Notes under the pieces: model-generated
What the model was told of the DNA's origin: nothing
Databases searched by the model: none
What the model saw: only the letters and a program-made list of their open reading frames with translations
From: Tubulanus polymorphus
Lineage: Eukaryota; Nemertea; Palaeonemertea; Tubulaniformes; Tubulanidae
Assembly (NCBI RefSeq): GCF_964204645.1
Contig: NC_134025.1
Span: 31,464,001-31,528,000 of the forward strand
Reading direction: 5' to 3'
Length of the DNA stretch: 64,000 bases
Program-made: the position numbers and the translations under genes
Shown: piece after piece, positions 35,596 to 53,095 of the stretch
Numbering within the stretch: position 1 is the first letter of the stretch
How the letters are laid out: each line of letters starts with the position of its first letter

Positions 35596-38500
35596 TTAGA
35601 TTGATAAGGGATGGTCCGGTTGGAGGACGAACCCTGAAGGATGTTTTGGTTGGTTGTACTGAGGATCCGCCACCGGAAGCCACATACCACAATCTCGCCA
35701 GCGATTTAGAAAATACGTAGAGGGCGTGCCGATCGGTTGGTCGCCCACAGTAGGGTCAACGATACACGGTAATTCGACGGTAGGGGACACCACCGATTCA
35801 AGGGTTTCTACCGCTGAATGAGGGTTTTTTTTTACGGAACCGTTCGTCGCTATAGAAACAAAAAGAAAAAATACGGGAAACCTAAAAACAAAACTGATTA
35901 ACGCAAAACATGAACACTCTGCCGCGTACCGGAAGTGTGCTGTCAGCCATTTTTGAATGAGCGGATTACCTTTTTTAGGATCAGTTCTTGTAGAATGTGT
36001 CTTATAGGATGAGTTACTCTTGGATGACATTTGACTTGTCATTGTAGTTCCTATAAACATATACATACAATTCAATATTAGTTCTCACAATAACTATGAA
36101 ACTGCGCCTAGGCGCTGGTTTTTGAGATCACTGTTGAACGGGAATAGGTATGAAATTTTATTGGATAAAAATCTTTTCAAATAGAAACGACACGATATTC
36201 TACTTCATAAAACCCTCAATATTTCAAATATATAAAACATATAAACACGACGACTATGCGTGAACAAACACATCTTACATTTATCATAGAATCTATCACT
36301 TTATCGAACGGCAAATTTTAGTTAGCAAAAAATTAGATATTTCATCGCGGAGTTTTTTCTATATTCTGAAACACATTATTTTCCATGCGGTTCACGAATT
36401 ATTACTAACACTTTTTCTCACAAGGTTCGTTTATTTGTGAATTCAAACACATGCAAAACAGCAAGACTAGTTTCAACCTAACACGGACTAACGCCACCTA
36501 GTGCCACAGTCGTGAGTTAGAGATAGAATTGATTTGTTATAATTCATTTTAGAAATATAATTTTACACCGAAATGAAGAACTGCGAGCCAGTTCCACAGT
36601 TATCAGTTGGAGTAAGAATCAGTTCATTTTCAATTTTCGCATTCGGAACAGTGGAACTATAAAGTGGCCATTTATACAGAACTGATATTTATACACGAAT
36701 ATGAATCCTTCCTCGTAGGGATTCGAATATAGAATGGGTTCGAACCCCGGCGAGACAGGTCGGTGCAGTCGGAACATGTGCGCATCATCGATGGTTATAC
36801 ATTGAACATTAACATTATAAACATTGAATGAACGCCTCACCTATGAAAACAAATCTCCTTGCAAAATGCAAAATAAAACAGATAAAGTTATATTAATCAG
36901 AAAATCAAATTGAGATCGAAGCAGTCGCAGAAACACTAAATCTTCTGTGGCCAGTTTCACAGTCATGGCTTAAATCTATGATCAGTCTAATCTCATCTCG
37001 GTTCTATAATCAATCTAACAACTTAAGGCCAGTTTAAGCTCATATTGATTGCGCACTGTCGTGGCTTCAATCTGTGATCATTTTAGCTCATTTTGGGCCT
37101 AAAGTCAACCCATAAACTTGAAATTCAAAACCGGTTCTTAAGTCAAGACCACTTTCGGACTTAATTCACGACTGTTTAACTGCACCCAGATTGAAACATG
37201 CTGGAATTATCATCGAAATCATATATGTGCGAAAAAATATCACGCAAAGAAGATAAGATTTATTAGAAACTAAATCTACAAGAAATAATAAGCTTTAACT
37301 CAACAGAATTCAAAGCACTTGTATCAAACTCGCTGCAATCTCGTTTGATGTTAATACGAACAGAAACGACCGTTTCTCAAGCGCAAACCGCTTTAAGCCG
37401 ATATTTGAATATGCTCAATGAAATTCTGGAAAACTAGCAAAACGAGCAGAGAATCTGGCAATAAATCTGACCCATCCCGATTACCTCCCCCAACCCCTAA
37501 ACATTAGTGGACACGCCTTAAACACATGCCAGTAAACAATATAAATTGTGTACCGATAGTAGTTTCGTCTATTTCAGTTTCTGTAAACAGATTTTATTCA
37601 ATATTATTACATCAAACACGAGAAGGGTCTCTGACCCACTGGGAGGTACCTCGTGGTTTTAAAAGTTATTCAAAATGGCTGCCGTTTAAAGTGTAAAATA
37701 TGAATATCTCAGATTTTTCGTAAAGCTAAAACAATACGAATCATTTTGGATATATATGATTAGAAATATCTGAGATCTGACCGGAAATATCTGATATATT
37801 TGAGTTGATATATGTGATATATTTGAGATTTACCTTTAGTCGATGATTTGAAGTATTTTGGAGCAGGTATACACGGGAAACAGTCATGTAGTTTATATCG
37901 CCATGCCTGACTGGCATCCTTCTTTAATACGACATAAAACAAAAATATAGCAAATCCTTGTAACGTGTTTACTATAGCAAACGCGTAACTGAAACCCACT
38001 GCAGCGTCCCCTATCGCCAGGAACGCTAACAACCACGCCAATCCTAGTAATATGAATATAGCCAAAGCTCCTCGTAGGTTTTTACTAGTTTTGTTTTTTT
38101 GAGTTTGGTTTTTGACGACCGGGTTGTTTCCCATTTGTTGTAAGCGACGGGCGACCAGCGCGAACACGATGGAATTCGCGATCAATATGGCCGCTATGGG
38201 AGCCACTACAGCTCCGTAGAAAGCGTTTCTTTCGATCCAACAACTGGAAATAAAACAATCAAGATTTGTTTTAAACTAGAATGAAAACAGATTATACAAA
38301 ATCCAAAAATTTGTGGTTGAGAGTTCAAATTTGTTGATTCCCAAATGTTTTGTCCTAGAGTCAAATTTTAAAACTCAGAACTGAGGAACTGGACCCAGAA
38401 CTGAGGAACTGGGTCCTGGTCGTTAAATAATCTTACAATTTTCCTGGTCCTTGTGGTCCGTAGTTATCACTACCATAAACAGCTAAAGTAATAATGAGTA

Positions 38501-53095: not shown

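Follow-up and report, generated by a model that had tools for sequence, protein, structure and literature searches.

An ADGRG-like adhesion GPCR gene of Tubulanus polymorphus with leucine-rich repeats and a probable LYPD6-like Ly6/uPAR domain

A gene for an adhesion G protein-coupled receptor (aGPCR) was identified in a stretch of 64,000 nucleotides of the Tubulanus polymorphus genome (contig NC_134025.1, positions 31,464,001 to 31,528,000; hereafter, the window). It is most probably a single intact gene, closest to ADGRG2, ADGRG4 and ADGRG6, whose product would combine leucine-rich repeats (LRRs), a LYPD6-like 12-cysteine Ly6/uPAR (LU) domain encoded by two exons with phase-1 flanking introns, a HormR-like domain, a GAIN/GPS module and a seven-transmembrane domain (7TM). 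At the level of the genomic sequence, the gene model, the domain order, an intact GPS motif and a paralogue of the same order were all established.

The gene is located on the minus strand (53095-35596). Scripted assembly joined 26 coding exons in one frame, which starts with an ATG at 53095, stays open for 1226 residues and ends with a stop codon at 35596; GT-AG borders were found at 25 of 25 introns. The model was built from genomic DNA, through splice signals and reading frame. A preliminary description of this DNA had proposed splicing in a single frame, which was borne out, and 25 exons, a number that had to be raised by one; the 27-nt exon 24 is the least certain. Exons 24-26 (37580-37554, 36050-35970 and 35849-35596), which would encode the intracellular tail (35596-37580), are defined by splice signals and frame and lie beyond the paralogue model described below. 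Intron 1 contains a near-pure CAG/CTG run of about 132 units (51656-52050; 99% match), and intron 15 contains a 65-bp tandem repeat of 4.5 copies (42255-42546; 99%). Elsewhere in the window, the plus strand carries a 379-residue ORF resembling rhodopsin-type GPCRs (8797-9936; Pfam Srw 3e-14, 7tm_1 2.9e-10) and a 409-residue C2H2 zinc-finger ORF (22837-24066).

The elements previously proposed (signal peptide, LRR N-cap, four LRRs, LRR C-cap, Ly6-like domain, HormR, GAIN/GPS and 7TM) were all found in place, and the order in the protein is signal peptide, LRR cap, LRRs, LRRCT, LU, an uncharacterised segment, HormR-like domain, GAIN/GPS and 7TM. Exon 1 (52854-53095) contains the start codon, a signal-like N-terminus according to a simple hydropathy rule (residues 1-31 are hydrophobic) and an LRR N-cap recognized by eye. 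Exons 2-5 (48479-50086; singly 50086-50015, 49927-49856, 49590-49519 and 48550-48479) are four 72-nt phase-2 LRR exons, and the Pfam scan of the full-length protein matched LRR_8 (8.3e-18, best stretch 78-136). The LRR C-cap is encoded by exon 6 (48098-48252), in which 20 of 49 aligned residues are identical to those of the paralogue; neither cap gave a Pfam match when scanned alone. Exon 7 (47903-48021), preceded by a phase-1 intron, encodes the first half of LU with cysteines C1-C4, and exon 8 (46631-46835), followed by a phase-1 intron, encodes the second half with C5-C12 and the CC....CN ending. The next segment of about 110 residues, encoded by exons 9-11 (45111-46386; 46386-46292, 45652-45591 and 45283-45111), gave no convincing Pfam match and no SEA match and is the least conserved part: 15 of its 87 aligned residues are the same in the paralogue. 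By position it could hold a SEA domain, and it is SEA-like at most; the ectodomain of ADGRG4 was described as SEA-HormR-GAIN in a 2026 review (PMC13197933).

The HormR-like domain is encoded by exons 12-13 (43926-44955; 44955-44826 and 44044-43926). HRM was matched at 3.2e-4 (21.5 bits against the curated cut-off of 26.2) only with this segment scanned alone, and was not among the Pfam matches in the scan of the full-length protein. Exons 14-18 (39594-43633; 43633-43402, 43014-42852, 41514-41389, 40492-40361 and 39743-39594) encode GAIN and GPS, and exons 19-23 (37834-39514; 39514-39387, 39293-39128, 38743-38599, 38515-38437 and 38243-37834) encode the 7TM. In the full-length scan, GPS (1.2e-12) was followed by 7tm_2 (1.8e-40), as expected of an adhesion GPCR. 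The Pfam match to GAIN was under the cut-off both in the window gene (0.06) and in the paralogue (3.7e-4); ADGRG6 aligned over most of the GAIN of the window protein. The GPS ends with HM↓T, followed by TNFALLM from the T onward; the motif is intact, and cleavage between residues 790 and 791 is predicted. Nine partly overlapping hydrophobic runs were detected in residues 809-1077, compatible with seven helices.

The 12 cysteines of the window LU domain have spacings of 2,8,7,6,17,5,10,13,2,0,4, near-identical to those of human LYPD6 (2,8,8,6,18,5,4,10,2,0,4), which also has twelve. The ten plesiotypic LU cysteines and the CC....CN ending are present. Six disulfides have been described for LYPD6, LYPD6B and Lynx2, the additional ones being in loops I and III (PMC7582953); the same bonding would explain why the window LU has twelve cysteines and not ten. 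The local alignment score between the window LU and LYPD6 was 63, attained in 1 of 3000 shuffles, and the window-paralogue and paralogue-LYPD6 scores were each reached by 0 of 3000. Shuffling the window LU residues reproduced the generic LU cysteine spacing 14 times in 100000, and the LYPD6-like 12-cysteine spacing, with ranges set after the sequences had been seen, 0 times in 150000. A chance cysteine pattern was therefore rejected. An hhalign comparison of the LU pair (window and paralogue) with LYPD6 was of little help, with a probability of 33.6 and an E value of 4.4e-4. According to a review, an LU domain usually occupies two exons, with phase-1 introns generally at the flanks and the inner intron falling at the loop 2 tip (PMC6600238). 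The window gene and the paralogue share the two-exon layout and the phase-1 flanks with the genes of that review, whereas their inner intron, in phase 0, lies between C4 and C5 and not at that tip.

It is improbable that exons 7-8 encode another disulfide-rich domain that merely resembles LU. Such a domain would be in keeping with the 21% identity to LYPD6 (BLASTP E 0.021) and with the searches using the window LU, which detected no three-finger family in Pfam (one chance match, Phage_CRI, at 0.1) or NCBIfam and, in PDB, gave four matches, only arabinofuranosidases (E 3.5-4.9). It would likewise agree with the two-sequence LU profile, which retrieved two unrelated PDB matches and no LU, and with the uninformative AlphaFold prediction of exon 8 alone, half of the domain (pLDDT 43), whose hairpin was left out of account. 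Against it stand the alignment of all twelve cysteines with LYPD6, the shared ending, the phase-1 flanks known from LU genes (PMC6600238), and the homologous domain of the paralogue, which when scanned alone exceeded the Pfam cut-off for Activin_recp (4.7e-5; 24.7 bits against 20.9). UPAR_LY6_2 (1.5e-4) and UPAR_LY6 (0.018) were under their cut-offs with this domain, as was Activin_recp (0.0082) in the full-length scan of the paralogue. The paralogue LU also has a 12-cysteine spacing close to that of LYPD6; in PDB, LYPD6 was the first of its 7 matches, but only at E 0.25.

A profile search of the T. polymorphus genome (267.8 Mb) with 7tm_2 gave at least 103 matches, 150 of 177 candidates having been scored, and 10-kb stretches around 20 of these places, picked as mostly multi-exon, were examined. 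The survey covered 32 loci, mostly around 7tm_2 matches, and is not a genome-wide count. When the window protein was compared with 28 loci by tblastn, two neighbouring places on contig C1 ranked first. One of them, paralogue A (C1:8176610-8171292, minus strand), was modelled over 1020 residues, its tail not being completed. Its order is signal peptide, LRR cap, two LRR exons, LRRCT, two-exon LU, in-between segment, HormR, GAIN/GPS and 7TM, which upheld the proposal that LRR, Ly6/uPAR, HormR, GAIN and 7TM belong to a single gene. Paralogue A is 33% identical to the window protein overall, with identities over aligned residues of 46% in the 7TM, 30% in GAIN, 26% in LU, 21% in HormR and 17% in the in-between segment. 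Setting aside two LRR introns of the window gene and the three in its tail, which lie beyond the paralogue model, all 20 introns compared have the order and phase that they have in the window gene; 13 of them share the alignment column, and the other seven are displaced by 2 to 19 columns. One donor of paralogue A is weak (GTGGCG). As the splice sites of paralogue A were picked by eye and with knowledge of the window gene, the match in phase, though strong, is not fully independent. The paralogue provides the best evidence obtained for assigning the LRR and LU exons to the receptor gene.

The same evidence bears on whether two adjoining genes, one for a secreted or GPI-anchored LRR-LU protein and one for a HormR-GAIN-7TM receptor, were joined on paper. 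The gene model rests on genomic sequence, and exons 9-11, where such a junction would fall, are poorly conserved and gave no credible Pfam match. On the other hand, a paralogue elsewhere on the contig repeats the order and the intron phases, the hydropathy rule revealed nothing from 47900 to 44000 that resembles a signal-peptide start for a separate receptor gene, and the sole hydrophobic alternative 3' end that the scanned stretch contains overlaps with exon 9 itself; a separate LRR-LU gene was rejected on these grounds. Two genes are accordingly quite unlikely, and one receptor gene is preferred. The gene model has no GPI anchor of the LYPD6 type, as its frame continues into HormR and GAIN.

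Gene B (locus L013, 1950-5400; C1:8182.4-8185.9 k, plus strand) lies head-to-head with paralogue A. Its GPS exon is 94% identical to that of paralogue A and its 7TM pieces are 47-91% identical; an LRR-like exon was recognized by eye, and no LU motif was found in a scan for CC...C[ND]. Since gene B has a related GPS and 7TM and no LU motif was seen in it, LU appears not to be present in every family member; gene B is perhaps a duplicate that lost LU. The CC...C[ND] scan covered loci L001-L030 and the window, in frames of at least 25 residues with cysteine runs skipped. Matches were obtained in the window, in paralogue A (L012 and L029) and in L011, L022 and L030; in the last three, no LU cysteines precede the motif in the printed frame, and the L030 motif resembles by eye the reverse strand of LDLa-type repeats. 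The window protein and paralogue A gave no tblastn match in L030, L031 or L032, the latter two having been read as ORFs on one strand only. L031 together with L028 (C5:7033000-7052999) contains an aGPCR-like gene with Ig-like ORFs and a HormR-like stretch, both by eye, and its GPS exon is 49% identical to that of the window gene. On contigs C4, C6 and C9, many 7tm_2 matches cover almost the full domain without leaving one open frame, the frames being about 700-1035 residues long; genes of the aGPCR type that keep the 7TM unbroken thus look numerous and clustered. By eye, the TM3 of one examined place (L002/L009) is like that of Flamingo, and the TM3 of another (L014) is like that of latrophilin.

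The 7TM alone gave 189, 181 and 180 bits with ADGRG6, ADGRG2 and ADGRG4, respectively, the next being ADGRD1 with 118; this is a best-hit ranking and not a tree, and it covers 56 listed PDB sequences, from which ADGRA is absent. ADGRG6 and ADGRG2 also came first with the GAIN part. As far as the PDB entries compared can tell, the 7TM, GAIN and GPS are closest to those of ADGRG6, ADGRG2 and ADGRG4. ADGRG4 and ADGRG6 are described as having HormR ahead of GAIN, as in the window protein (PMC13197933). ADGRG6 has CUB and pentraxin domains, whereas the window protein has LRR and LU instead, neither CUB nor pentraxin being one of the 11 Pfam families that its full-length scan listed. The ectodomain of ADGRA consists of LRR, Ig, HormR and GAIN, in this order, ahead of the 7TM. 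ADGRA1-3 thus share with the window protein the order LRR, small domain, HormR, GAIN, 7TM; Ig takes the place of LU in them, and no Ig match was among the 11 listed families. This common order had led to the earlier proposal of an ADGRA receptor with a three-finger domain at the Ig position, which is very unlikely and was rejected on the 7TM ranking (about 60 bits better with the three ADGRG receptors than with the next group, no ADGRA being in the PDB list), the GAIN ranking and the extra segment of about 110 residues ahead of HormR. A loose TM3 motif was present in seven examined loci, none of which was taken for ADGRA by eye, which proves nothing.

The window protein is very likely to work in the general adhesion-GPCR mode, LRR and LU serving as its candidate binding modules. 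ADGRG6 acts by means of a tethered agonist. In the window protein, GAIN would cut itself at HM↓T, and the N-terminal fragment would stay attached. The likely role of LRR and LU would be to bind a partner, either in the matrix or on an adjacent cell; the pull or the binding itself would then expose the putative tethered agonist TNFALLMDVYG... to the 7TM, which would probably signal through G proteins.

LRR-bearing adhesion GPCRs are known in ADGRA. LRRs have also been reported in one Ciona adhesion GPCR (PMC2396169) and among the aGPCR domains of choanoflagellates and metazoans (PMC12716839), and new domains in invertebrate adhesion GPCRs are known, for example, from amphioxus (PMC2246102). In starfish, LyAr2 and LyAp2 have been described as LU portions of larger sequences, which the NCBI annotator labels as adhesion GPCRs; a GPCR-like protein with a single extracellular LU has been noted both for LyAr2 and for XP_033635539.1 (PMC9410279, PMC11595613). 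The LU domains of LyAr2 and LyAp2 are 48-55% similar to LYPD6 and were grouped with Lynx2 in a tree (PMC9410279, 2022); LyAr2 was later given as 58% similar to human Lynx2 in a paper which also says that the human counterpart has no pronounced LU domain (PMC11595613, 2024). The starfish proteins are likened to the window protein by description, as LU joined to a GPCR-type protein; LRR, HormR and subfamily are not mentioned in the passages of the two papers that deal with them (PMC9410279, PMC11595613). LU in an adhesion GPCR has therefore already been seen in passing and is not wholly new. The preliminary description had taken the combination to be undescribed; this no longer applies to LU in GPCR-like proteins, reported in 2022 and 2024, and it stands for LRR with LU, or LRR, LU and GAIN, in one receptor, for which no report was among the literature matches listed from a search that left most subscription journals outside. 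It is possible, if rather doubtful, that the receptors found here and in starfish represent an old unrecognised family of ADGRG-like aGPCRs that captured a LYPD6-type LU by shuffling of a phase-1 exon pair.

According to a 2019 review, LU is probably no bona fide mobile module, occurring mainly alone or repeated, and is possibly a 'proto-module' (PMC6600238). Exon shuffling requires symmetrical phases, such as these phase-1 flanks. That two genes of one genome carry LU on an exon pair of this kind, set between LRRs and HormR-GAIN-7TM, provides a concrete case for the shuffling of LU; if the old family were real, LU would be a true mobile module. For the aGPCR field, the receptor also offers a candidate binding domain from a family in which partners have already been reported. 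LYPD6, a GPI-tethered single LU where the window LU sits in a receptor ectodomain, is reported to enhance Wnt signalling and to interact with the Wnt co-receptor LRP6, and nicotinic receptors are further reported partners (PMC8494132); for starfish Lystar5, an integrin-like protein was suggested (PMC11595613). A Wnt link of the receptor is only a lead. Because GPI-tethered LYPD6 interacts with LRP6 (PMC8494132), a receptor of such an old family that bears a LYPD6-type LU in cis could connect LRP6/Wnt complexes with signalling through G proteins.
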